Part shown: positions 7,065 through 18,155 of the stretch, piece by piece
How the letters are laid out: every line of letters begins with the position of its first letter
How positions within the stretch are numbered: the stretch's first letter is position 1
Virus record (IMG/VR): IMGVR_UViG_3300028840_007026
Location: 17,356 to 81,355 of that record
Length of the DNA stretch: 64,000 bases
Direction: 5' to 3' (one strand)
Source of the DNA: a virus
Program-made: the position numbers and the translations under genes
The notes under the pieces: generated by a model
Database searches by the model: none
What the model was told of the DNA's origin: nothing
What the model saw: the letters and a program-made list of their open reading frames with translations, nothing else

Positions 7065-7387
7065 TCTTGTATTTCCCTTATTATTTGCTGAGCAACCCAA
7101 TTGCTTTTGAAAACCTTTGCGAGATGTTTGTGAATACTTCTTACAGTAACTTCATGCCTACGTGGAGTAGCAATTAAATCGACTATTTCATTCGGGGAAT
7201 TGAGAATAATATCAATCAACTCTTTTGCTTCGTTACTCAATCTCTCCCATGCTTGAATCTTTATTAATGCCTTTTCTGCGGATATTTCTTTCGCCGGTAG
7301 TATTTCATCTTCCGGATCAGCAGAACAATCATTTTTAAAAATCTCATATGCTACTCTATAATCGTTTTCACTAAGTTTTATTGGCAT
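7046..7387 (-). CDS. Hypothetical protein, 113 residues
   Basis: A mostly helical protein; residues 70-113 (EVTVRSIHKHLAKVF and following) could form a helix-turn-helix. It overlaps the helicase start by 19 bases, suggesting coupling. No family recognised. Confidence 0.7.
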   Translation of the reverse strand: MPIKLSENDYRVAYEIFKNDCSADPEDEILPAKEISAEKALIKIQAWERLSNEAKELIDIILNSPNEIVDLIATPRRHEVTVRSIHKHLAKVFKSNWVAQQIIREIQEWVKHL

Positions 7388-7400
7388 TTCTGGTTTTCCG

Positions 7401-7895
7401 TTATCGCCTCCTTAATGTTCTTTTTTTCTCTGTGGGGCGACGTTTTAATGTTCTCGTTTTTGGTAAGAGTACATCAAATGCCTTTGTTAAGGGGGATTTA
7501 TTTTCTTTTCCATCTCTTCTTTTTAAAACCCTTTTTTGATTCCCCGGATCGGCTATTTCTTCTTTTCTCAGTAGCCTCCTCGGGGTTACAATAGGGACCA
7601 AATCGAGAAAATACCTCTCGATGATTGGTCTGATTTCTTTATCAAATTGTCTACAGTTTTTACACAACTCCCATGATAGTAAGTTTTTCTCATTCCTCCT
7701 TCGTGCTATACATTGGTTGTAATTGAGTCTGCAACCAAAGTTATCACAGTTGAAAATCGTTGGATTGAAGTACTTGCATTGCTTACTGTCAGCTTGTACT
7801 TTTTTCTTTGACGCGATGCACCGCTTAGTGTAGCCGTTGGATTCCCTTTTTACTACATCAGACCGGCACCACCAATGGCAGTTGGAACATGACAT
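7401..7895 (-). CDS. Cysteine-rich, LKRR-motif protein
   Basis: 164 residues. The N-terminal 95 residues hold about ten cysteines in pairs (CSNC, CKYF...CDNFGC, CKNC), suggesting one or two zinc sites. The C-terminal 70 residues are basic and disordered-looking and carry RVLKRR, RTLKRR and RTLRRR, a short motif that also occurs twice in the next upstream gene (7982-9106). Good Shine-Dalgarno AAAGGAG before ATG. Function unknown; the shared motif suggests a common binding partner. Confidence 0.75.
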   Translation of the reverse strand: MSCSNCHWWCRSDVVKRESNGYTKRCIASKKKVQADSKQCKYFNPTIFNCDNFGCRLNYNQCIARRRNEKNLLSWELCKNCRQFDKEIRPIIERYFLDLVPIVTPRRLLRKEEIADPGNQKRVLKRRDGKENKSPLTKAFDVLLPKTRTLKRRPTEKKRTLRRR

Positions 7896-7910
7896 TCTCT
7901 TCTCCTTTTT

Positions 7911-7940
7911 AAAAGGAAAAGCTCCGAATGACTCGGAGCT
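7911..7940 (-). terminator. Intrinsic terminator between two LKRR genes
   Basis: AGCTCCGA (plus 7920-7927) pairs with TCGGAGCT (7933-7940) over a 5-base loop; on the minus strand the stem is followed by TTTCCTTTT. It ends the unit coming from 7982-9106, 40 bases after its stop. Confidence 0.7.
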
Positions 7941-7981
7941 CTTGAGTATACCAAATTGTGCTATAAAAGTAAAGAGGCGCT

Positions 7982-9106
7982 CTATTCGGTGCTTTCCTGG
8001 TTTTCAATGATATCGTAAAAGTCATTTTCGGAAGACTTTTGCCTGATGATCATAACCGGAAAACCATCTTTGACCAGTTTCCTTATTACTGCTTTCAATT
8101 TTGCAGTGGTATCCCTTCGACTGCAATTGAATTGCTTTTCAACTGCTGAACACAATTCACCGTAGTAAACACCTTCGCTCATCATTTCAGAGATGAGTGC
8201 GTGAATGCTTTTCTTCCGGTAGCCGAAGCGGTTCAGACCGTAGCGGTTGTTTTCTCCGCGACGTTTCAGAACCCTTTCTTCCTTTTGCGAAGTTTCTTCC
8301 TTCTGTGGAGTTGGAGTTCTCCGTTTGAGAATTCTCGGAGCAGGAGTATTCGGATCAACTTTCATGTCAAGGTCAATGCCGTGACACTTGTTAGCTGCCT
8401 TGAATGCCGCTGCACAAGCGGATACGAAATCCTTCGGTGGAGTTTCGAATTTGTTCTCCCATCGGATTTTCATATTGTTGAGAAATTTGATTGCTGTCGG
8501 AACTACTTTTGCAGCAACACGATTGAATACTGTCGTTTTGGTTGGGATGTGAATGATACGTCCGAATTCATCACCGTCAGTTACATAGTAGGAATAGGAA
8601 AATTGCTTCCCTTCTACCGGACCGACTTCGTTCGACTTGGTACCTTCCTTCAGGAACTCTTTGTAGTTCTCTTCGGATAATTTCTTTTTGCTCACTTCTT
8701 TGGTACCAGTGGAATCCAGTTCATCTACCCGTTTGATAACGTTTTTAATCTTGCCAGACAGTTCATCCAGCTTTTTGATAATCAGGTCTGCGATAAACGG
8801 GTCCAGGTCCTGTTTTGGAGAGCCTTCAGGAGCCTCTTCAGGTTCCCTTTCGGGAGGCCTTTGGTTATGGTTGTCGGCTTCCGGTTTGCTTTCAGGATCT
8901 GCTTTCCCAGCTTGAGCTCTTGCCAATATTGCTCGCTTATGGTCAGCATACCGTTGACACTTCGAACAGGTGATTTCTTCCGGACTGGCTTCGATTGGTT
9001 TGAGTAATCTTCTACCGTCGCATCTTGCAACAACCAAACCATCCAGCATTTTACTGTAATGGATTACTTCGCCTTTGGTTGTTTTACCATACTTTGCATC
9101 AGCCAT
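7982..9106 (-). CDS. LKRR-motif protein with C-terminal winged-helix-like region
   Basis: 374 residues from the ATG at 9106, chosen because AAAGGAGG stands 8 bases upstream; an in-frame TTG at 9154 lacks such a site. A CSKCQRY pair sits near residue 48. A Pro/Glu-rich linker spans about 70-105, a helical segment (KKLDELSGKIKNVIKRVDEL) about 115-135, a globular middle 160-270, then a disordered stretch with PRILKRR and ERVLKRR. The last 75 residues (SIHALISEMMSEGVYYGELC...) resemble in spacing the C-terminus of the acidic repeat protein at 594-1697. Function unknown; DNA binding is an inference. Confidence 0.8.
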   Translation of the reverse strand: MADAKYGKTTKGEVIHYSKMLDGLVVARCDGRRLLKPIEASPEEITCSKCQRYADHKRAILARAQAGKADPESKPEADNHNQRPPEREPEEAPEGSPKQDLDPFIADLIIKKLDELSGKIKNVIKRVDELDSTGTKEVSKKKLSEENYKEFLKEGTKSNEVGPVEGKQFSYSYYVTDGDEFGRIIHIPTKTTVFNRVAAKVVPTAIKFLNNMKIRWENKFETPPKDFVSACAAAFKAANKCHGIDLDMKVDPNTPAPRILKRRTPTPQKEETSQKEERVLKRRGENNRYGLNRFGYRKKSIHALISEMMSEGVYYGELCSAVEKQFNCSRRDTTAKLKAVIRKLVKDGFPVMIIRQKSSENDFYDIIENQESTE

Positions 9107-9169
9107 TTTTAATCCTCCTTTGAGTGGGTTGAGTAAATACGTCAGTGTTAACAATATAACACGTTTCGC

Positions 9170-9211
9170 ATTAATTTAGTACGCCAAACTATTTTGGAAT
9201 ACTAAATTAAT
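9170..9211. repeat. 12-bp perfect inverted repeat upstream of 7982-9106
   Basis: ATTAATTTAGTA (9170-9181) and TACTAAATTAAT (9200-9211) are exact reverse complements, with an inner CCAAA/TTTGG pair in the spacer. It stands about 65 bases before the start of the downstream minus-strand gene and could be a regulator operator or an RNA hairpin. It is not a ribozyme: no CTGATGA core is present. Confidence 0.6.
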
Positions 9212-9231
9212 GGGGGAGCCGAAGCTCCCCA
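9212..9231 (-). terminator. GC hairpin with UUCG tetraloop after 9238-9468
   Basis: On the minus strand GGGGAGC, loop TTCG, GCTCCCC forms directly after the stop of the 76-residue gene. It is followed by an AT-rich stretch but no clear T-run, so it may be a 3'-end stabiliser or a weak terminator. Confidence 0.5.
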
Positions 9232-9237
9232 ATTGGG

Positions 9238-9468
9238 TTAAACATAGGGACTTCTCAACGGGACGTGAAGTCGAGACTTGCTACGCTTGGACGGATCCCT
9301 GCGAACTTCTCGAGCAGTTGCCATATAATGCTCTGTGATATCTCTCCAATGGTGGAAACAAAAAAGATGTTTTTGGGTCGGTTTCCGATCTGCGACGTTT
9401 TTCTTAATGGGTTTTCCACAGATCTCACATCGGCGATTGCTCATTTCGGTGTACGGAACCTTTTTCAT
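9238..9468 (-). CDS. Small zinc-binding-like protein, 76 residues
   Basis: Starts MKKVPYTEMSNRRCEICGKPI after AAGGAGAAG. CEIC and a later CFHHW could make a Cys2-His/Cys zinc knuckle. The C-terminus is basic. Its ATG overlaps the stop of the gene at 9465-9812 by 4 bases, and no ribozyme separates this pair. Function unknown. Confidence 0.7.
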   Translation of the reverse strand: MKKVPYTEMSNRRCEICGKPIKKNVADRKPTQKHLFCFHHWRDITEHYMATAREVRRDPSKRSKSRLHVPLRSPYV

Positions 9469-9812
9469 TTCTTCTCCTTAATTAGATATGACATTGAAAG
9501 TACTGCTTCCTTAATCGCTTTATGGCCGAGTTCGTAAAAGTAATAGAGTACAACGAACGTCTCATACGAACCTTGTTGAAGTGGAATATAATCGCCAATT
9601 AAAGAACGGAGAATGTCGGGATTGTCATATGCATCATCTGCTGCACAATCCCTTTCAGAACCGTAACCACGATGGTTGAAATCCTCATCTACTGCTACCA
9701 TATCGTAAACTGCTGACTGGAGCCAGTTGATGTAGTTCTCAACACCATCTTTGATTTGTTCTTCTGTGAGCTGCTTCATGGTTTCATAGTTTTGCAATTG
9801 TAGATCTACCAT
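9465..9812 (-). CDS. Hypothetical protein, 115 residues
   Basis: The start is the ATG at 9812 (MVDLQLQNYE) with AGGAGG 9 bases upstream; longer readings would translate hammerhead ribozyme HHR-a. Acidic and helical, no known motif. It is the first cistron after HHR-a and is coupled to the following 76-residue gene. Confidence 0.75.
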   Translation of the reverse strand: MVDLQLQNYETMKQLTEEQIKDGVENYINWLQSAVYDMVAVDEDFNHRGYGSERDCAADDAYDNPDILRSLIGDYIPLQQGSYETFVVLYYFYELGHKAIKEAVLSMSYLIKEKK

Positions 9813-9840
9813 AATAATCCTCCTATAAGTAGTAAAGGTT

Positions 9841-9904
9841 GCCTCATCAGTAATAGGGTTCCTATCCCTATCAGACGAGGGGAGCAATTTCCCCTCGTTT
9901 CGGC
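9841..9904 (-). ncRNA. Type II hammerhead ribozyme HHR-a
   Basis: Read on the minus strand: GCC (9904-9902), GAAA (9901-9898), stem III CGAGGGGA/UCCCCUCG with a 6-base loop, UC (9875-9874), stem I UGAUAGGG/CCCUAUUA with loop AUAGGAA, CUGAUGA (9850-9844), GGC (9843-9841). GGC pairs with GCC as the open stem II. Expected cleavage is between 9874 and 9873. The G of the upstream gene's UAG stop is the first base of the stem II strand; the downstream Shine-Dalgarno begins about 20 bases after the core. All invariant core bases of the hammerhead are present. Confidence 0.92.
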
Positions 9905-10086
9905 TACAATTTTTTCATGATCCAATCAGCATGAGTATATTGGTAATAATGCATCATGTGGACCAATTGGTTGTGAATCTCCATAACTCCGGCTGGACAA
10001 TGATCAGGGCTTTTCCATGTTGCTTCAATTTCTTCTATCTTTCCCATAAAGGTTTTTCTTTCTACCAGCATTATTCTTTCGTTCAT
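9904..10086 (-). CDS. Hypothetical protein, 60 residues
   Basis: The ATG at 10086 (MNERIMLVERKTF) follows AGGAG at 8 bases and is preferred to the ATG 15 bases upstream. The stop TAG abuts HHR-a. Contains a His/Tyr-rich tail (HMMHYYQYTHADW). No family recognised. Confidence 0.65.
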   Translation of the reverse strand: MNERIMLVERKTFMGKIEEIEATWKSPDHCPAGVMEIHNQLVHMMHYYQYTHADWIMKKL

Positions 10087-10090
10087 TTTT

Positions 10091-10423
10091 TTACTCCTCA
10101 TTTATAGAAGGTAGGTCTCTAATACTGTCCCACAAATTTCTCTTTTCCAGTTCGATAGCATTATGAATAATTCTTTCATAACACTTGATGAAACGTTTGA
10201 ACTTGGAAAGATCACCGTTTTCCCATGCGTAGACGATATGCATCGAAATTCCAACGAGCATCAATAACTGCTCATGTACTGTCGATTGAGTCTTTGCAAT
10301 CTTGAGATGATGGTAGCAAAGATCGTTTGGAATGTCTGTATCTTCTTTCCATTTTCTTTTTTCACAAACTTTTTCTTTAACCGGGACTTTCCTTGCCTTC
10401 CTTTTTGGTTTTTCTACTTTCAT
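10091..10423 (-). CDS. Hypothetical basic protein, 110 residues
   Basis: Starts MKVEKPKRKARKVPVKEK, chosen by AGGAGG 10 bases upstream; the long reading to 10465 would enter HHR-b. The N-terminal 25 residues are strongly basic, the rest helical. It lies 4 bases before the 60-residue gene, so the two form one unit bounded by HHR-b and HHR-a. Confidence 0.72.
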   Translation of the reverse strand: MKVEKPKRKARKVPVKEKVCEKRKWKEDTDIPNDLCYHHLKIAKTQSTVHEQLLMLVGISMHIVYAWENGDLSKFKRFIKCYERIIHNAIELEKRNLWDSIRDLPSINEE

Positions 10424-10455
10424 AATAAATCCTCCTGTTAGTTGGTAGTTATGAG

Positions 10456-10517
10456 CAAATCTCATCAGGCATGGTAGCTCATTTCCATGCGACTCCCCGA
10501 AGGGAGTTTCGAATTAA
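10456..10517 (-). ncRNA. Type II hammerhead ribozyme HHR-b
   Basis: Minus strand: GAAA (10510-10507), stem III CUCCC/GGGAG with a UUCG tetraloop, UC (10492-10491), stem I GCAUGG/CCAUGC with a 10-base loop, CUGAUGA (10468-10462). The open stem II is GAUUUG against UUAAUUC, with one U-U mismatch, and includes the UAA stop of the 30-residue upstream gene. Expected cleavage between 10491 and 10490. Stem II is weaker than in the other copies. Confidence 0.85.
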
Positions 10518-10606
10518 AGGTTAAACATGAGAATAGTAAAAATGTAGATGACAACGAGAATAAGAAGACCAGCGAAGATCTCAAGAATAATTTCCAGATC
10601 CTTCAT
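10514..10606 (-). CDS. 30-residue single-span membrane protein
   Basis: Reads MKDLEIILEIF followed by an uncharged stretch AGLLILVVIYIFTILMF, then NL and TAA. Almost all of it is one predicted membrane helix. Its ATG overlaps the TGA of the preceding gene (ATGA), so it is probably translated by coupling, and its stop lies within HHR-b. Small one-helix phage proteins often modulate host membrane complexes, but no function can be assigned. Confidence 0.6.
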   Translation of the reverse strand: MKDLEIILEIFAGLLILVVIYIFTILMFNL

Positions 10607-10911
10607 GTTGTTTCCCTTTCGTTAGAAATTTTGGCAATTTCCCTGAACGTGATTGGGTTCACATACATCTTGCAAAGTGGGGAGTATTTGTCTTTCGTGC
10701 CCTTTAAAGCAATTTTAAGGCATGATTGACAGTAATTCAAATCGTCGTAATATTGAAACTGCTTCACAAATGTTTTCTCAACCGGTTGGACGTAATAACA
10801 TCCACAAGCGATTGCACATCCGCATAAGGAATACTCTTCTCCAGTTTCTTCATCCGTTTCGAACAAATGAATCTTTCGGGTCAACCAATACTTCATTTGA
10901 TGGTATAACAT
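10603..10911 (-). CDS. Cysteine-rich hypothetical protein, 102 residues
   Basis: Has two cysteine groups, CGCAIACGC near residues 30-38 and CQSC near 62, which could bind zinc. Start is supported by AGGAGG 5 bases upstream, formed partly from the stop codon of the preceding gene. Followed by the coupled 30-residue membrane protein. Function unknown. Confidence 0.7.
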   Translation of the reverse strand: MLYHQMKYWLTRKIHLFETDEETGEEYSLCGCAIACGCYYVQPVEKTFVKQFQYYDDLNYCQSCLKIALKGTKDKYSPLCKMYVNPITFREIAKISNERETT

Positions 10912-11220
10912 TTAGCCTCCTATCACTCGACCGTAAGTAGTAATTAGTTCCCTTCCCACCGGAGTTTCAGTTGAAATCATAGAATCCTTGGAAAGGCAGT
11001 AAATACATTCCGTTTTTTTCGGTAGACAAATCCTCAATGCGGAATAGACTACTGCTATTGTGACGGTTATGACTGGGATGATGATAGTAAACCAGAACAT
11101 GATAAACGAGGCTGGTACAACAACAAACCAAGCGAGAATTTCGGTCCATATATCACCGAATCGCTCGTTCCTTGGTTTCCCGATTACTCCACAATTCTTG
11201 CAAATTAGTTCCTGTGACAT
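10912..11220 (-). CDS. Zinc-ribbon and two-span membrane protein, 102 residues
   Basis: Begins MSQELICKNCGVIG (CxxC), has two hydrophobic spans at about 28-46 and 47-65 and then CIYCLS (second CxxC), so a zinc ribbon could form across a membrane hairpin. AGGAGG precedes the ATG. It is the first cistron after HHR-c. Function unknown. Confidence 0.7.
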   Translation of the reverse strand: MSQELICKNCGVIGKPRNERFGDIWTEILAWFVVVPASFIMFWFTIIIPVITVTIAVVYSALRICLPKKTECIYCLSKDSMISTETPVGRELITTYGRVIGG

Positions 11221-11253
11221 GATAAATCCTCCTGTTAAGTAGTAATAAAGGGT

Positions 11254-11317
11254 ACCTCATCAGTGCGTAGTTCCCTAATCTACGCAGACGGGAGAAAAAA
11301 ATTTCTCCCGTTTCGGC
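11254..11317 (-). ncRNA. Type II hammerhead ribozyme HHR-c
   Basis: Minus strand: GCC (11317-11315), GAAA (11314-11311), stem III CGGGAGAAA/UUUCUCCCG (9 bp), UC (11288-11287), stem I UGCGUAG/CUACGCA with loop AUUAGGGAA, CUGAUGA (11263-11257), GGU (11256-11254). Stem II is GGU with GCC (one G-U pair). Expected cleavage between 11287 and 11286. The TAA stop of the upstream gene ends one base before GCC. Confidence 0.92.
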
Positions 11318-12187
11318 TTAGACGTCCAGTTTACGTTTTACCTTGAAGTCAGGAACAGCTTTAATTTGTTTTGCGATCTTCTCCATCTTTTTCGAAACTT
11401 CTCCACGGAAGTCCTCGCTGTTCCTAAGTTTGTCGGCAGAGGTTTTCTTCATTTGGATGCGAAGGGATCTCATTATGGATTTCATTTTCTTCCCATCAAT
11501 ATTGTCTTTCCAGAGATCATCCCACTTGCCAAGAAACTTATCAAGGGCATTAATCGTTCCAGCGTTGATCTTGTCATTGTCGCACTGTTCTTTTAATTTC
11601 TCAATGCGAGCGAGCAACGTGCTGCCAATGATATTGACAGCCATCATCTCCATCTCATTTGCCATGGATTGAAACTTCTCCCTTTCCCTTTTGTACATCG
11701 AAGCAGTTAGTATACCTGCATCTTTATCGGGAAGTTGAAACTGGAAAAATCTCCAAAAGAAATCATGTTTTGCTCTGATTGAATCTGCCGAAGGGTAGTT
11801 TGTTTCATCGTAGTACTCGGGGTACTTGGTTTTAAAGCTACGCTTTAATGACCCCATTTTCTTAACAAGCTTATCCGTGAGTTCAGCGTATTCGGCTTTG
11901 AGTTCAGTAAACACCTTGTCCAAATACTCAATCTTGTGTTTGGGTACCCAGAACACTCCGTCGACAGGAAACGGCATGGAACTATTGAGAAGTTCCCTTT
12001 TTGTTGCCCGTTTTACTGCGAGAAGATCGTCGATGATAGTTCTATCATCTACCAGATCCTGGACACCGCGAACGATTTCAGACGGAACATCAGGTCCCAG
12101 CTTGTCTTTACTCAGTTTGGTGTAAGCTCCCCAACGGCTAACTTTCAATTGACAAAGGACGCCTTCATTTAATTGTTCGACTTTCAT
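11318..12187 (-). CDS. Coiled-coil-rich hypothetical protein (DUF3150-like)
   Basis: 289 residues, helical, with long charged segments at about 85-115 and 195-290. Overall look and length resemble DUF3150 proteins, which occur beside AAA+ ATPase genes; here a Ycf46-type ATPase is two units upstream. ATG preceded by AGGAGG in the leader shared with neighbours. Flanked by HHR-d upstream and HHR-c downstream, so it would become a single-gene mRNA. The DUF assignment is from memory of the pattern and is uncertain. Confidence 0.65.
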   Translation of the reverse strand: MKVEQLNEGVLCQLKVSRWGAYTKLSKDKLGPDVPSEIVRGVQDLVDDRTIIDDLLAVKRATKRELLNSSMPFPVDGVFWVPKHKIEYLDKVFTELKAEYAELTDKLVKKMGSLKRSFKTKYPEYYDETNYPSADSIRAKHDFFWRFFQFQLPDKDAGILTASMYKREREKFQSMANEMEMMAVNIIGSTLLARIEKLKEQCDNDKINAGTINALDKFLGKWDDLWKDNIDGKKMKSIMRSLRIQMKKTSADKLRNSEDFRGEVSKKMEKIAKQIKAVPDFKVKRKLDV

Positions 12188-12217
12188 AAATCCTCCTATA
12201 AGTTAGTAGTAAAAGTT

Positions 12218-12273
12218 GCCTCATCAGATAACAAGTTCTTATCTTGCTATGACCGCCCGAAGGCGGTTTCGGC
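12218..12273 (-). ncRNA. Type II hammerhead ribozyme HHR-d
   Basis: Minus strand: GCC (12273-12271), GAAA (12270-12267), stem III CCGCC/GGCGG with UUCG tetraloop, UC (12252-12251), stem I AUAGCAAG/CUUGUUAU with loop AUAAGAA, CUGAUGA (12227-12221), GGC (12220-12218). Stem II GGC/GCC. Expected cleavage between 12251 and 12250. The last G of the upstream TAG stop is the first base of GCC. Confidence 0.93.
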
Positions 12274-12680
12274 TAATATTCCAATGTAATCAGAATATCC
12301 CCATTGGTGTCCTTCTCAGTAAATACACCCTCAATTTCCGTGTAGTCAATGTTCTTCAATACTACACTGGAATTGTACTTTTGGAGCGTCAACCCGAGCA
12401 AATCCATTGTTGAACATTCCTCACCGTATGGTCCTATTACTGTACGATCGCTACCAAAGTGATCATACCTAATACTACCGTCTGGACTTATTGCTAACGG
12501 GTATGCCCAGCCTTTGAGATGGACCTCTGCGATTGCATTGTTAACACTATTATGACCATAGTGTTTAACTGCAAAGGCTTTCCCACCCAAGTACTTTACT
12601 CGATGACCGAGTTCTTTACAGATGGTACAGAAAGTTTCAACGTCAGTCACTTTTTGTGCATAGCGAGTTGTATGGCTCAT
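12273..12680 (-). CDS. DUF1257 (Ycf35-like) protein
   Basis: 135 residues from the ATG at 12680 (MSHTTRYAQKVTDVETF), preceded by AAGGAAATAA; a longer reading to 12740 has no support. The MSH start, the LGHRVKY segment and the AFAVKHYGHNS / PLAISPDGSIRYDHFGS pattern match the DUF1257 family, related to Ycf35. In bacteria DUF1257, DUF2997 and Ycf46 ATPase genes are often neighbours, and all three are present here in consecutive positions. Biochemical role unknown. Ends in HHR-d. Confidence 0.75.
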   Translation of the reverse strand: MSHTTRYAQKVTDVETFCTICKELGHRVKYLGGKAFAVKHYGHNSVNNAIAEVHLKGWAYPLAISPDGSIRYDHFGSDRTVIGPYGEECSTMDLLGLTLQKYNSSVVLKNIDYTEIEGVFTEKDTNGDILITLEY

Positions 12681-12727
12681 TTTTATTTCCTTTTTAGTTT
12701 GGTAGTAAAATGTTTTTTGAGAATTAA

Positions 12728-12940
12728 TCATCCGCACCATTCACTCGGAAGACCATTTGAGATTGTTTCTTTGTTTTCCCAGTAGCTATCCTTATAGTTA
12801 CGCTGCTGGTCATTACCACCGAACAACTTGTCAAGGAATGCGGTTGCTTCTTCACAGCTACCGCCTTTAAAGTTGAATGCTTCGACACGTACTGAACCAT
12901 TTTTCCCTAAAGTGATTTTTACTTTACGTTTTTCTTCCAT
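12728..12940 (-). CDS. DUF2997 family protein
   Basis: 70 residues: VKITLGKNGSVRVEAFNFKGGSC then EEATAFLDKLFGG, the typical DUF2997 pattern of a short beta-hairpin, GxSC and a helix. AGGAGG before the ATG. Lies between the AAA+ ATPase and the DUF1257 gene. It probably acts with them, but the function of the trio is not known. Confidence 0.75.
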   Translation of the reverse strand: MEEKRKVKITLGKNGSVRVEAFNFKGGSCEEATAFLDKLFGGNDQQRNYKDSYWENKETISNGLPSEWCG

Positions 12941-12974
12941 TTTATCCTCCTATAAGTTAATTGTGTTATGGCTT

Positions 12975-13034
12975 GCCTCATCAGTGCTACCGTAGCCAGT
13001 GGTAGCAGACGGGCCTGAATCGGCCCGTTTCGGC
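12975..13034 (-). ncRNA. Type II hammerhead ribozyme HHR-e
   Basis: Minus strand: GCC (13034-13032), GAAA (13031-13028), stem III CGGGCC/GGCCCG with a 6-base loop, UC (13009-13008), stem I UGCUACC/GGUAGCA with loop ACUGGCUAC, CUGAUGA (12984-12978), GGC (12977-12975). Stem II GGC/GCC can extend past an A-C mismatch by two more pairs (AG with CU). Expected cleavage between 13008 and 13007. Stop TAA of the ATPase gene ends three bases before GCC. Confidence 0.93.
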
Positions 13035-13037
13035 GAG

Positions 13038-14450
13038 TTATTTATCGATGCGACGTCTTCCCGGCCGTTTAACTGTTCGCGTTTCCATAACGGTTTCAGC
13101 GGGTATCGTTCGGCCTTTTGCCCAATCCCTTAGTCTTGCAATGCTTTCCCCTGCCGTTTTTGCTTGTGGAATAATGGCTTTCGAAGCCTCAATAAGCGAT
13201 ACTCCTCTCATGTCGGCAATGTGAACCAATGCTTCGATTTCAGCGCCGGAGAAGTCAACAAGTGAAGGTGTTTTTTGTTTTGGGAGATTCGCATTTACCC
13301 TGTAGTGTTCCAGAATAGAACTTGCAACTTTTTGGGAAGGGTAGTCGATGAAAAAGGGAGATGAATCCCAGCGACCAGGACGCAAATACTCGTTTGGAAT
13401 TCCCTCAAAGCTATTTGCTGTCCCAACAATGTAAACCCCTTTCGGACGGTTTTGCAGAAAGTCTAACCACCGACCAGTCGCACGTCGTGTTGTACCACTA
13501 TCGAGCGAACCATCGCTATTACTACCAGCGAACTGCTTTTCGAATTCGTCGATGAGAACTACACATTCACCAATTGAACAAATGATTTCGATCGCAGTAT
13601 TGATATTCTGGTCGGTTTCCCCTTGAAACTTAGAAAATAACGAACCCATATTGATGGAAAGACCGAATTTCTTAGTCTCACCGACAATTGCTTTCATTAG
13701 GGTAGTCTTACAACATCCCGGAGGGCCGATCGTAATAATGCCTTTTGCTTTTGGATTATCGATCGTCGAAAGGATAAACTGCTTTATGTTATCGTATCCA
13801 ACCACATCCTTGAACGTAAGATTTCCATCGAGAACATCGAGAAAACCGGTTTTCCGTATTGCTTGAGCCTTGTGCTCGTTGATCGTCTCAATACTAAAAC
13901 CTTTTCCGTTCGACTCAACTAATGAAAGCGCGAGAACGTTATCAAGTTCACTTCGACTCAACCCCTTACAACTGTTAGCTACTTTCGTTATTTCTTCGGG
14001 TGAAAGGTTTTTGTCTGCCATTTCTTGAATCGCGGTAGTAATTTCAGGACCGTTAGGAAGTGGAAGATCAATAAGAACATACTCTTTTTCCAGCTCCACC
14101 GGTAGTTTTTTTGAATGGGACACGCAGATAATTGCTTTCCCCTGAGATGACCAGAGTTTAGCATTGTCTTTTATGTGCTGAATGACCTGAGGCTTTTCAG
14201 CAAACCAGTGCCAATTGTAAAGAAAAATAACCGTTAATTCTTCGGCCTGATCCAGAACCTGAAGCGGTTCTCTCGGGTCGTTTCCTTTTGCCAAGGACCA
14301 TTCCCTGACGGAGTACTTCCCGCCATCTTTACGTTCAAAGTTTTTAATGGTTTCATACACCTTTTCCCTTACGAAGTCATGCTCAGAAGTTCGGAGCCAA
14401 AACGTTGAAAAACCTGCACGTAGATAATTAATGATCTTGTCAGCTTTCAT
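13038..14450 (-). CDS. Ycf46-type AAA+ ATPase with altered Walker A
   Basis: 470 residues. Residues 1-185 form the degenerate N-terminal domain typical of Ycf46 proteins (FSTFWLRTSEHD, VIFLYNWHWF, IICVSHSKKLP). The AAA+ core starts near 205 with FKDVVGYDNIKQ, then GPPGCCKTT (Walker A), VVLIDEFEKQF (Walker B with DE), GTANS (sensor 1) and LRPGRWDSSPF (arginine finger region). The Walker A glycine before the lysine is cysteine here, which is unusual and may alter nucleotide binding. It is followed by DUF2997 and DUF1257 genes, its usual partners. Flanked by HHR-f and HHR-e. Confidence 0.85.
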   Translation of the reverse strand: MKADKIINYLRAGFSTFWLRTSEHDFVREKVYETIKNFERKDGGKYSVREWSLAKGNDPREPLQVLDQAEELTVIFLYNWHWFAEKPQVIQHIKDNAKLWSSQGKAIICVSHSKKLPVELEKEYVLIDLPLPNGPEITTAIQEMADKNLSPEEITKVANSCKGLSRSELDNVLALSLVESNGKGFSIETINEHKAQAIRKTGFLDVLDGNLTFKDVVGYDNIKQFILSTIDNPKAKGIITIGPPGCCKTTLMKAIVGETKKFGLSINMGSLFSKFQGETDQNINTAIEIICSIGECVVLIDEFEKQFAGSNSDGSLDSGTTRRATGRWLDFLQNRPKGVYIVGTANSFEGIPNEYLRPGRWDSSPFFIDYPSQKVASSILEHYRVNANLPKQKTPSLVDFSGAEIEALVHIADMRGVSLIEASKAIIPQAKTAGESIARLRDWAKGRTIPAETVMETRTVKRPGRRRIDK

Positions 14451-14480
14451 AAATCCTCCTATAAGTTAGTAGTAAAGGTT

Positions 14481-14542
14481 ACCTCATCAGTACCCAAGTT
14501 CCTATCTTAGGTAAACGGGAGAAGTATTTCTCCCGTTTCGGC
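14481..14542 (-). ncRNA. Type II hammerhead ribozyme HHR-f (UU cleavage site)
   Basis: Minus strand: GCC (14542-14540), GAAA (14539-14536), stem III CGGGAGAA/UUCUCCCG with loop AUAC, UU (14515-14514), stem I UACCUAAG/CUUGGGUA with loop AUAGGAA, CUGAUGA (14490-14484), GGU (14483-14481). The cleavage triplet is GUU instead of GUC, still within the NUH rule but normally slower. Expected cleavage between 14514 and 14513. The TAA stop directly precedes GCC. Confidence 0.88.
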
Positions 14543-14866
14543 TTATGCTGTTTCAACTCTGTATCTTGGATCGTATTCCCAGTCACTACTGTCTGGGAAC
14601 AACCTCAAGAATATTTCGTAAGCTTTGTAACCGGAAGTTCTCCGGTTGTATTCTTTTTTGATTTCTTTCATGCTACGAATACCATACTCGGAAAACAGCC
14701 TTTCGAATTCGTTTTTTACTCCCTTGAAATAACCTCTGTACATATCCTGGAAACACTCTCCTGGTGCACCCCACAGAGACATATCATTATCCATTGCTTC
14801 TATGTCTTCCGCCATTTGATAGAATTTACTCAGGATCATTCCAAATGATTTTTTCCAATCTTTCAT
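14543..14866 (-). CDS. Hypothetical protein, 107 residues
   Basis: Start MKDWKKSFGMILSKFYQ at 14866, 4-5 bases after AGGAGG; the longer reading to 14899 would run into HHR-g. Helical, mixed charge, no motif recognised. Bounded by HHR-g and HHR-f, so predicted to become a single-gene RNA. Confidence 0.72.
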   Translation of the reverse strand: MKDWKKSFGMILSKFYQMAEDIEAMDNDMSLWGAPGECFQDMYRGYFKGVKNEFERLFSEYGIRSMKEIKKEYNRRTSGYKAYEIFLRLFPDSSDWEYDPRYRVETA

Positions 14867-14892
14867 AATTCCTCCTTTGTGGTTGTTGACTT

Positions 14893-14949
14893 GTCTCATC
14901 AGCGGTCAGGTTGTCACCCTGTACCGGACTCCCCAAAGGGAGTTTCGAC
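14893..14949 (-). ncRNA. Type II hammerhead ribozyme HHR-g
   Basis: Minus strand: GUC (14949-14947), GAAA (14946-14943), stem III CUCCC/GGGAG with loop UUUG, UC (14928-14927), stem I CGGU(A)CAGG/CCUGACCG with a bulged A and loop GUGACAA, CUGAUGA (14902-14896), GAC (14895-14893). Stem II is GAC/GUC, a compensatory change from the GGC/GCC of the other copies. Expected cleavage between 14927 and 14926. The upstream TAG supplies the first base of GUC. Confidence 0.88.
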
Positions 14950-15161
14950 TATGCTACTTGAAGATCGAGCGAAGCGTAATCAACACGAGCCCAAAACTCG
15001 TCCCATGATTCGTCTTCGTTTAACGGTTGAGAGTAGTAAACACATTTCCCGTTTTCTTCAATTTCAACATGCCACTCGTTCCACTTCTCAAGGTATCTCA
15101 GGATAAAGGTTTGTCCGTCGATAATTTCTTTTTCTTTGATTGAGCGATCGATCTTTTTCAT
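14949..15161 (-). CDS. Hypothetical protein, 70 residues
   Basis: MKKIDRSIKEKEIIDGQTF... acidic, with WNEWHVEIEENGKCVYY, a beta-sheet-like segment. AAGGAGG precedes the ATG. First gene of the ribozyme-separated early run; the operon promoter should lie upstream in the 15.2-16.2 kb region. Function unknown. Confidence 0.72.
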   Translation of the reverse strand: MKKIDRSIKEKEIIDGQTFILRYLEKWNEWHVEIEENGKCVYYSQPLNEDESWDEFWARVDYASLDLQVA

Positions 15162-15204
15162 AATGCCTCCTTAATAAGATTCATATATTTGCCTGTCCCA
15201 AACA

Positions 15205-15254
15205 CTTTAAAGCCTTCAAACGGCTCCTGAGGGCTCCACTCAAAGGCTTTAAGG
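15205..15254. repeat. 12-bp hairpin in divergent region
   Basis: CTTTAAAGCCTT (15205-15216) pairs with AAGGCTTTAAGG (15243-15254), one G-T pair, over a 26-base loop. It is close to the start of the early operon and is immediately followed by a second hairpin, so it may be part of the early leader RNA. Confidence 0.6.
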
Positions 15255-15255
15255 T

Positions 15256-15281
15256 GGAGGCGAATATAAATACTCGCCTCC
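15256..15281. repeat. 8-bp hairpin in divergent region
   Basis: GGAGGCGA (15256-15263) pairs with TCGCCTCC (15274-15281) over a 10-base AT-rich loop. Confidence 0.6.
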
Positions 15282-15570
15282 GGGTAGGCTCAACTTAAAA
15301 GGAGGAGGATATATTGCATAGCTGCGACAGTACTGAGAATATTCCTGTCGGTTTTCCAAATGATTCCGACTTGGTTTTACTTAACTTATTCAAACCAATT
15401 GTTCCTTGTCGGCACGTTTTTTTTCAAATGGGTTTCACTATGGCTTGCCAGCACATATTCAGCATAGTTTCAACCGGTGGCCGGTGGTTTTCTATGCTGC
15501 CTGGTATCAGAAGTTCGAGATTTTTTAATCTTGCGTTATCAACGGAATGTTTTTTTCTACCATATCCGAA

Positions 15571-16758: not shown

Positions 16759-18155
16759 GCATTAATCCCCCTTCTATGAATTCTATTCTCAACGTGACGC
16801 CATTGCGATATCACCCTGTACAAGCGAAACTATGGAGAAGCAAAACCCGTTTTGATATAGTATATGCAGGGAGAAGATCAGGCAAAACGGAAATAAAAGG
16901 AAAGAGACAAGCAGCAAAAGCAGCATTAGAAGGAAACGAAGGTAGATTCCCTAATTGGAGAGGATTTGTCTCAGCTCCTACACGTGATCAGGCCAAAACT
17001 ATCTACTGGGAAGACCTTAAGAGATTACTACCTCCCCCGCTGAGAGCACGACCTGCCAGCGAATCCAAGTTAACCTTATATGTCTATAACAAGTACGGAA
17101 CGATTTCAGAACTCCACGTTTTAGGAATGGACAGGCCGGAACGTGTTGAGGGTAGTCCTTGGGACTGGGGATTACTTGATGAATATGGGAATATGAAACC
17201 GGAAACATGGGGAGCACATGTACGTCCGGCTCTATCAGATAGGAAAGGGAAGTGTTCGTTTATTGGTGTACCGGAAGGGAGAAATCATTATTATGATCTG
17301 GTTAAAGATGCTGAAGCGAGTACTTTAGTTGATTCCAGCGGGAATAAGGTATGGTCCACATATCATTGGTTGAGCGAAGATATATTAGATGCAGATGAAA
17401 TCATTCAGGCAAAACAGGATCTTGATGAACTGACATACGAGCAGGAGTATTGTGGATCGTTTGTAGTCTTCTCAGGTCTGGCATACTATAAGTTCAATTC
17501 CCACTTGCATACGTCTGGATGCAAAAAGCATTACGATCCATCTTCTCCGCTAATCTTTTGCTTCGACTTCAACGTTGCACCGGGAACTGCGAGTGTACTG
17601 CAAGAAATGTCGGATGTAGATGAATGGCCTATTTCGCAGGTTCCTATTGTCGGTCATACGATTACTTCCCAGATTGGAGAAGTTTATATAAAACGAAACT
17701 CCAACACTGAGAAGGTATGCGATAAACTGATCGATGACTGGGGGGATCATACAGGACTTGTTTTTATATATGGGGATGCGACTGGCGGTGCTGGTGGTTC
17801 TGCGAAGGTGAGAGGATCTGACTGGGATCTGGTGAAGCAGAAACTCTATCCACAATTTGGGAATCGGCTTGTATTCAAAATAAGAAAAAGTAACCCCAGA
17901 GAACGACGTAGAATTAATTGCGTGAATTCTCGTCTCATGTCCATGACAGGCAATATCCATTATCAGGTAGATAAATCTTGTGTAAACACAATAAAGGATT
18001 TTGAGGGAGTAAAGATCCTGGAAGGTAGTGTTGGAGAAATTGACAAGAAATCAGATCCAATGCTTTCCCACTTAACGGACGGAATTGGCTACTATATCGA
18101 ACGTGAGTTCCCGATTATTAAGTTGCAGCCACAGACGTCCAAATTTTGGAAGTAA
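16755..18155 (+). CDS. terL: Terminase large subunit
   Basis: 466 residues. ATPase domain: Walker A AGRRSGKT (residues 38-45) and Walker B WGLLDEYG with D142/E143. Nuclease domain: FCFDFN with D271 and, about 75 residues on, IYGDATGG, plus a C-terminal DPMLSHLTDGIGYY with a conserved-type Asp, as in RNase H-fold packaging nucleases. It pumps DNA into the prohead and cuts concatemers. Overlaps the small subunit stop by 4 bases. Confidence 0.92.
   Translation: MSINPPSMNSILNVTPLRYHPVQAKLWRSKTRFDIVYAGRRSGKTEIKGKRQAAKAALEGNEGRFPNWRGFVSAPTRDQAKTIYWEDLKRLLPPPLRARPASESKLTLYVYNKYGTISELHVLGMDRPERVEGSPWDWGLLDEYGNMKPETWGAHVRPALSDRKGKCSFIGVPEGRNHYYDLVKDAEASTLVDSSGNKVWSTYHWLSEDILDADEIIQAKQDLDELTYEQEYCGSFVVFSGLAYYKFNSHLHTSGCKKHYDPSSPLIFCFDFNVAPGTASVLQEMSDVDEWPISQVPIVGHTITSQIGEVYIKRNSNTEKVCDKLIDDWGDHTGLVFIYGDATGGAGGSAKVRGSDWDLVKQKLYPQFGNRLVFKIRKSNPRERRRINCVNSRLMSMTGNIHYQVDKSCVNTIKDFEGVKILEGSVGEIDKKSDPMLSHLTDGIGYYIEREFPIIKLQPQTSKFWK

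Follow-up and report, generated by a model that had tools for sequence, protein, structure and literature searches.

What are seven hammerhead ribozymes doing between the genes of a single phage operon? The question is raised by IMG/VR virus record IMGVR_UViG_3300028840_007026 (81,355 bp), of which positions 17,356 to 81,355, a stretch of 64,000 nucleotides hereafter called the window, were analysed. A first-pass annotation made from the letters alone had proposed an array of type II hammerheads separating early phage genes. We confirm that seven complete type II hammerheads are present on the minus strand of the window, at the positions given below. From their anatomy and placement we consider it likely that these ribozymes are active and co-transcriptionally cut a leftward polycistronic transcript at each wide gene junction, giving mRNAs of one to three genes.

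The elements were located with a descriptor consisting of GAAA, a closed stem III, UH, a closed stem I, CUGANGA and an open stem II, with at least 4, 4 and 2 pairs in the three stems, respectively. Applied to both strands of the window, it returned seven minus-strand sites within 9831-14949 and no others. A chance origin of the seven elements was rejected, as only 0.01 such elements per 64 kb are expected from first-order Markov resamples of the window with this descriptor, the stricter of those used. All have the order 5'-II-GAAA-III-UH-I-CUGANGA-II-3', with stems I and III closed by loops and stem II open, and the invariant core (CUGANGA, GAAA, UH and the A15.1-U16.1 pair) is complete in 7/7. 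Nucleotide H17 is C in six of them and U in the one with its cleavage site at 14514. Matches to the Rfam Hammerhead_II model (RF02276) had been expected at all seven sites, and this was too optimistic: a single site (12966-13035, 38.8 bits) exceeds the gathering score, three were found in a local search, and four (28.6-38.8 bits) were found at E <= 0.001 in the whole 81-kb record. The Rfam model is less sensitive. As an independent test, a covariance model (R1) was built from 17 ribozymes of relatives, none of them from the window. With the 81.4 kb of the record as target, R1 scored all seven sites at 37.4-54.2 bits (E 1.7e-11 to 3.6e-7) and had no further hit at E <= 1. The circular order and the complete cores claimed in the first-pass annotation are thus borne out by both descriptor and R1, and the cleavage positions that it listed are identical to the seven predicted by the descriptor scan.

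Numbered by increasing coordinate, hammerhead 1 (9831-9904, predicted cleavage at 9874/9873, R1 53.2 bits) lies between genes of 60 amino acids (aa; stop codon at 9906-9904) and 115 aa (start at 9812), and has 8 pairs in stem I, 8 in stem III and 3 in stem II. Hammerhead 2 (10449-10513, 10491/10490, 37.4 bits) separates a 30-aa gene (10514-10606) from a 110-aa gene starting at 10423, and hammerhead 3 (11244-11317, 11287/11286, 47.6 bits) separates the gene for a DUF3150 protein (stop at 11318) from a 102-aa gene starting at 11220. The same DUF3150 gene, starting at 12187, is preceded by hammerhead 4 (12208-12273, 12251/12250, R1 49.2 and RF02276 31.7 bits). Hammerhead 5 (12965-13034, 13008/13007, 54.2 and 38.8 bits) is found between an AAA+ ATPase gene (stop at 13038) and a 70-aa gene (start at 12940), and hammerhead 6 (14471-14542, 14514/14513, 54.2 and 33.1 bits) precedes this AAA+ gene, which starts at 14450. 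Finally, hammerhead 7 (14883-14949, 14927/14926, 49.2 and 28.6 bits) lies between another 70-aa gene (stop at 14951-14949) and a 107-aa gene starting at 14866.

As had also been noted in the first pass, the stems differ in sequence while their pairing is kept. This was evaluated on 28 distinct trimmed ribozymes of the phage group to which the record belongs, seven of them from the window. MAFFT applied to whole ribozymes misaligned stem III, which differs in length, and trimmed or length-matched sets were used instead. Paired cells amount to 97.4% versus 66.3% in shuffles, a figure that is partly circular since an element is detected only if the first 4 pairs are present in stems I and III. 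No such circularity affects the variety of pair types: both sides have changed at 13 of 15 pairs, and the covariation score is 0.867 versus 0.218 in shuffles, with 0/500 shuffles as high; sliding the strands gives 0.09-0.20. All three stems covary. Also supported is the pseudoknot typical of type II hammerheads, predicted between loop I and the tail that follows stem II and absent from the first-pass annotation. Hammerheads 2 (AUGAGC with GCUCAU), 3 (AGGG with CCCU), 5 (UGGCU with AGCCA) and 7 (UGAC with GUCA) show it clearly; the corresponding pairing is AGG(G) with CCU(U) in hammerhead 1, A/U-rich in hammerhead 4 and AGG with CCU in hammerhead 6. When loops and tails were swapped between ribozymes, own pairs had a mean weight of 10.6 versus 8.1 for swapped ones in the window (15/2000 permutations as high), and in the phage group none of 2000 permutations reached the value of own pairing. 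Perreault et al. (2011, PMC3088659) found this contact in the majority of type II members and showed that fast cleavage depends on it.

The operon carrying the array reads leftward from a divergent intergenic region at about 15.2-16.2 kb and would form one transcript. A census of its junctions revealed one ribozyme in each of the 7 wide ones (82-97 nucleotides) and none in the 5 that overlap or are short, and a scan of the rest of the window found no junction with a ribozyme. Seven minus-strand sites between minus-strand genes agree with the claim that hammerheads separate the genes of one operon. That these are early genes is plausible from the position of the operon, which begins next to the divergent region and runs on towards genes for replication; further minus-strand genes encode a primase, helicases, DNA polymerase III alpha, RecA and a clamp loader. 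The placement follows a rule. The upstream stop codon, which overlaps or abuts stem II, ends 2-6 nucleotides before GAAA (2 in hammerheads 1, 4 and 7, 3 in hammerheads 2, 3 and 6, and 6 in hammerhead 5); the next start codon is located 29-38 nucleotides past the core. A stop codon 0-8 nucleotides before GAAA is found at 33 of 46 sites in the phage group, at 27 of 44 sites in other arrays and at 53 of 65 single or paired IMG/VR sites, and before only 6-8% of random same-strand positions. The leaders left after cleavage would measure 60-67 nucleotides; each has a strong Shine-Dalgarno site, and the predicted fold starts with the stem I hairpin in most of them. Hidden promoters at the junctions were considered and rejected, since a consensus scan gave 18 hits versus 16.9 expected and since stop codon, ribozyme and ribosome-binding site (RBS) take up the gaps.

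Hammerhead cleavage produces a 2',3'-cyclic phosphate beside stem III; the other new end, on stem I, is a 5'-hydroxyl. In the proposed mechanism, each wide junction would be cut during transcription and closely packed genes would be spared. In line with this reading, the record has no match to an RNA ligase, RtcB or RNase III. The upstream piece would carry its stop codon, a short 3' untranslated region and the stem III hairpin ending in the cyclic phosphate; the downstream piece would begin with the closed stem I hairpin, which bears the 5'-hydroxyl, followed by the uniform leader and the Shine-Dalgarno site. As both new ends carry a closed hairpin, each mRNA should be protected from exonucleases and from 5'-end-dependent decay, which would uncouple the fate of each unit. 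Logically, type II would be the only circular permutation that caps both new ends, type I leaving the downstream and type III the upstream end uncapped. As stem II is in contact with the stop codon, part of the core should be hidden under a ribosome terminating there, and cutting may thus be delayed until translation of the upstream gene has ended.

Relatives were sought with the AAA+ ATPase (13038-14450, minus strand, 470 aa; Pfam AAA, E 8.7e-18; phrog_8638, E 1e-52) as marker, which gave full-length relatives at 44-65% identity; the DUF3150 protein (11318-12187, minus strand, 289 aa; Pfam DUF3150, E 7.9e-11), used as a second probe, found no loci. In six AAA+ relatives RF02276 has 9, 3 (a fragment), 7, 10, 8 and 14 matches per whole record, and zero in the other nine records searched, including those of four full-length AAA+ homologues (L126 and L133-L135). 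Rfam and descriptor combined indicate 15 hammerheads in the L132 record. Among the matches listed by a pattern scan, there are at least 10 further array records, each with 2-10 Rfam matches, from which we conclude that hammerhead arrays recur among uncultivated phages. Of the cultured phages with a distant AAA+ homologue, 0/8 records had a hammerhead match. Many type II hammerheads of L131 (406-3923) and L130 (1717-3356) read CUGACGA with one extra nucleotide before stem II (CUGACGAUGG..), and are missed by a descriptor lacking this extra nucleotide between core and stem II. In L128 (303-3356) and L129 (1788-7592), stems I and III are identical in most ribozymes, as if recently copied or homogenised, whereas the window set has diverged. 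Whole stems are also repeated among the hammerhead copies of L127.

The AAA+ tree places the window as sister to the ribozyme-less L126 (support 99/98), and the presence of ribozymes needs two changes on it; being a single-gene tree, it could be misled by gene exchange. The L132 row of this tree was joined from two frames. In L132 (9986-11403) the AAA+ gene is split in its C-terminal third by an apparent frameshift, either real or a sequencing error. The ribozyme-less relatives have other structured elements at their junctions. In L126 (2356-14991) these consist of a GC hairpin abutting a 17-22-bp hairpin, followed by an RBS. They were rejected as decayed hammerheads, as there is no core and no RF02276 match. 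The junctions of L133, L134 and L135 carry stem-loops of about 60 nucleotides that start at or near the stop codon and have asymmetric internal loops, a feature not found in L126. At 11/13, 14/14, 11/12 and 17/17 junctions of L126 and L133-L135, 53/56 in total, the structures are stronger than those of shuffles (z < -2), and the junction elements of these four have no match in Rfam. Some ribozyme-bearing relatives have strong hairpins at ribozyme-free junctions too, and both kinds can thus coexist.

L135 (4024-13650, same contig as L145) and L133 (at 1229 and 3024) hold at least 14 copies of a 60-nucleotide element, UAAUUGAAACCGGGCA-[variable hairpin]-GCAGGUAUCUCAAUUA, which begins at or near stop codons. 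It could alternatively form a downstream hairpin AGGUA...UACCU, whose loop CAAUUA is complementary to the stop-bearing UAAUUG. A known ribozyme was rejected for this internal-loop element, which has no Rfam match and is present in only two IMG/VR contigs. A second type of stem-loop in L133 (2148-7950), UAAUUGUAU-..-AGGUA..hairpin..UACCU-UGCGAUU-AUACAAUUA, shares this alternative hairpin downstream (mean weight 15.6 versus 10.2 in shuffles). L134 (3635-12736) shows further types with asymmetric internal loops (e.g. UUUAACU / GACGCUUG), whose 3' strand is also able to form a hairpin downstream. The L133-L135 elements resemble R1.1 of phage T7, a 60-nucleotide RNA with an asymmetric 4/5-nucleotide internal loop located between genes 1.0 and 1.1 (PMC6121014), and by this analogy they may be RNase III sites. 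A bolder reading, in our view a long shot, would be that each uncoupled junction of one operon in the phage group has an RNA cutting device and that these devices are interchangeable. The pseudoknot-like element of L133 and L135 (a stop-bearing UAAUUGA strand, a hairpin A and a hairpin B whose loop contains UCAAUUA) would be one of them, a self-cleaving RNA not described before, and ribosomes that terminate at the stop codon would gate its folding.

Several points weigh against cleavage at each wide junction as proposed here. The nearest relative by AAA+ protein, L126, is without ribozymes in the RF02276 search. The pseudoknot is short in hammerheads 1, 4 and 6, with only about 3 pairs at two or three sites. 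The U at H17 of the 14514 site usually makes for slower cleavage. The predicted exposure of the Shine-Dalgarno sites shows no consistent change on cleavage, and release of these sites by cleavage, which was inconsistent across junctions, was rejected as a function. Furthermore, 14 of 18 consensus hammerheads were active in Perreault et al. (PMC3088659), and some window copies may therefore not cut.

Cleavage could also lower or grade expression through differential decay of the pieces, instead of producing stable gene-sized mRNAs. Cut operon pieces can decay at different rates, and stem III lengths do vary between sites. However, both new ends would be capped by hairpins, a strong Shine-Dalgarno site is kept on each downstream piece, and ends of the RiboJ type accompany increased expression (PMC6206723); we regard such grading as unlikely. 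Another view would have the ribozymes as an efficiently spreading cassette of hammerhead, leader and RBS that tolerates any junction, with cleavage being merely harmless. Copies within a genome can indeed be near identical, as for stems I and III in L128 and L129 and for whole stems in L127, similar leaders follow each window ribozyme, and ribozymes can be missing from a close relative. Yet the window copies differ at almost every stem position and retain core, stems and pseudoknot, overlapping junctions are skipped, and ribozyme-less relatives use strong hairpins of other types at comparable junctions, so that a cassette appears distinctly improbable. The elements could instead act mainly as paired hairpins, either stabilising 3' and 5' ends or serving as ribosome-release spacers, with little cutting in vivo, for example when terminating ribosomes cover stem II and GAAA. 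This would fit the stop codon, which at most sites touches stem II or runs into it, and the coreless junction hairpins of L126 and L133-L135. It would explain neither why all core nucleotides are preserved in seven differing ribozymes nor the loop-tail pairing, and comparable tandem sites cleave in E. coli (PMC3088659); we find it very unlikely. Cleavage followed by ligation into spliced or circular RNAs is scarcely credible: hammerhead ends are substrates of RtcB-type ligases and retrozyme hammerheads do make circular RNAs, but ligation by a phage enzyme was rejected for want of a candidate, a search of the record giving no RNA ligase (RNA_ligase) or RtcB match, and Perreault et al. sought such products from tandem prophage hammerheads and found none (PMC3088659).

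Division of the operon transcript by the hammerheads, the reading that we favour, can be set against known systems. Multiple hammerheads flanking prophage genes were published in 2011 and mRNA processing was proposed for them; three tandem arrangements cleaved in vitro and one in E. coli (Perreault et al., PMC3088659). The RF02276 type II family shares with the window the core, the element order, a stem II of 2-3 pairs and the loop I-tail pseudoknot (PMC3088659); there is no defining difference, although 6/7 window copies score below the gathering threshold. The prophage clusters of Clostridium scindens, Azorhizobium caulinodans and Agrobacterium tumefaciens likewise have serial hammerheads between genes of one transcript, with processing proposed, and there cleavage was shown (PMC3088659). 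In contrast, the window has one ribozyme per wide junction of a 6-kb operon (7, and at least 14 in a relative), a regular stop-codon placement and different genes, a triple being the largest set stated in the available text of that paper. The statement in the first-pass annotation that a serial array is not a standard description thus holds in part. The ribozyme family, the idea of mRNA processing and tandem cleavage activity were already known (PMC3088659), and the novelty lies in a scale that spans a whole operon, in the stop-codon rule and in the exchange of ribozymes for other hairpins from one sister phage to another. A literature search found no later paper on type II arrays, subscription journals and preprints being largely outside its coverage.

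Processing of T7 early mRNA by RNase III is similar to what is proposed here, in that an operon transcript is cut at gene junctions into hairpin-bordered mRNAs. The window differs in requiring neither a protein nor a long double-stranded site, as the RNA would cut itself, and in the RNA ends, 5'-hydroxyl and cyclic phosphate for a hammerhead versus 5'-phosphate and 3'-hydroxyl for T7 RNase III. In E. coli, the RiboJ insulator, in which a hammerhead leaves a leader hairpin, increases transcript roughly twofold and protein two- to tenfold (PMC6206723). Like the window elements it lies upstream of an RBS and gives a uniform hairpin-bearing leader, but it is synthetic and placed between promoter and gene, whereas the window elements are natural and placed between genes. 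The role of hammerheads in phages is a question standing since 2011, and related phages offer a natural comparison: the structured element kept at their junctions is a self-cleaving ribozyme in some and an RNase III-like stem-loop in others. If both kinds do cut, selection would act on dividing the operon, with RNA and protein catalysis as interchangeable means. The regular unit of stop codon, ribozyme, leader and start codon is also a natural template for multi-gene constructs expressed from one promoter.

Other genes of the array operon are, from their open reading frames and, for the first two units, the junction census, grouped on the minus strand into ribozyme-free units: two genes with a short gap between them (12273-12940, with 12728-12940 and 12273-12680), three abutting or overlapping genes (10514-11220, with 10912-11220, 10603-10911 and 10514-10606) and two closely packed genes (9904-10423, with 10091-10423 and 9904-10086). 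Just past the last gene of the operon, a consensus scan found a terminator-like hairpin on the minus strand (9213-9230, GGGGAGC-UUCG-GCUCCCC followed by an AU-rich stretch; fold z = -3.5). Upstream of its first gene there is a long imperfect hairpin, CUUAAAGCC...GGCUUUAAAG, at 15195-15255 of the window. Two observations concern L125 (record G000). Its DNA polymerase III alpha (7272-10664, 1130 aa) has a C-terminal uracil-DNA glycosylase-like domain (residues 977-1120, E 3e-21). A pair of radical SAM proteins, one of which has a B12-binding domain, is encoded at 12052-15340 within the replication gene cluster and is possibly involved in nucleotide or DNA modification.

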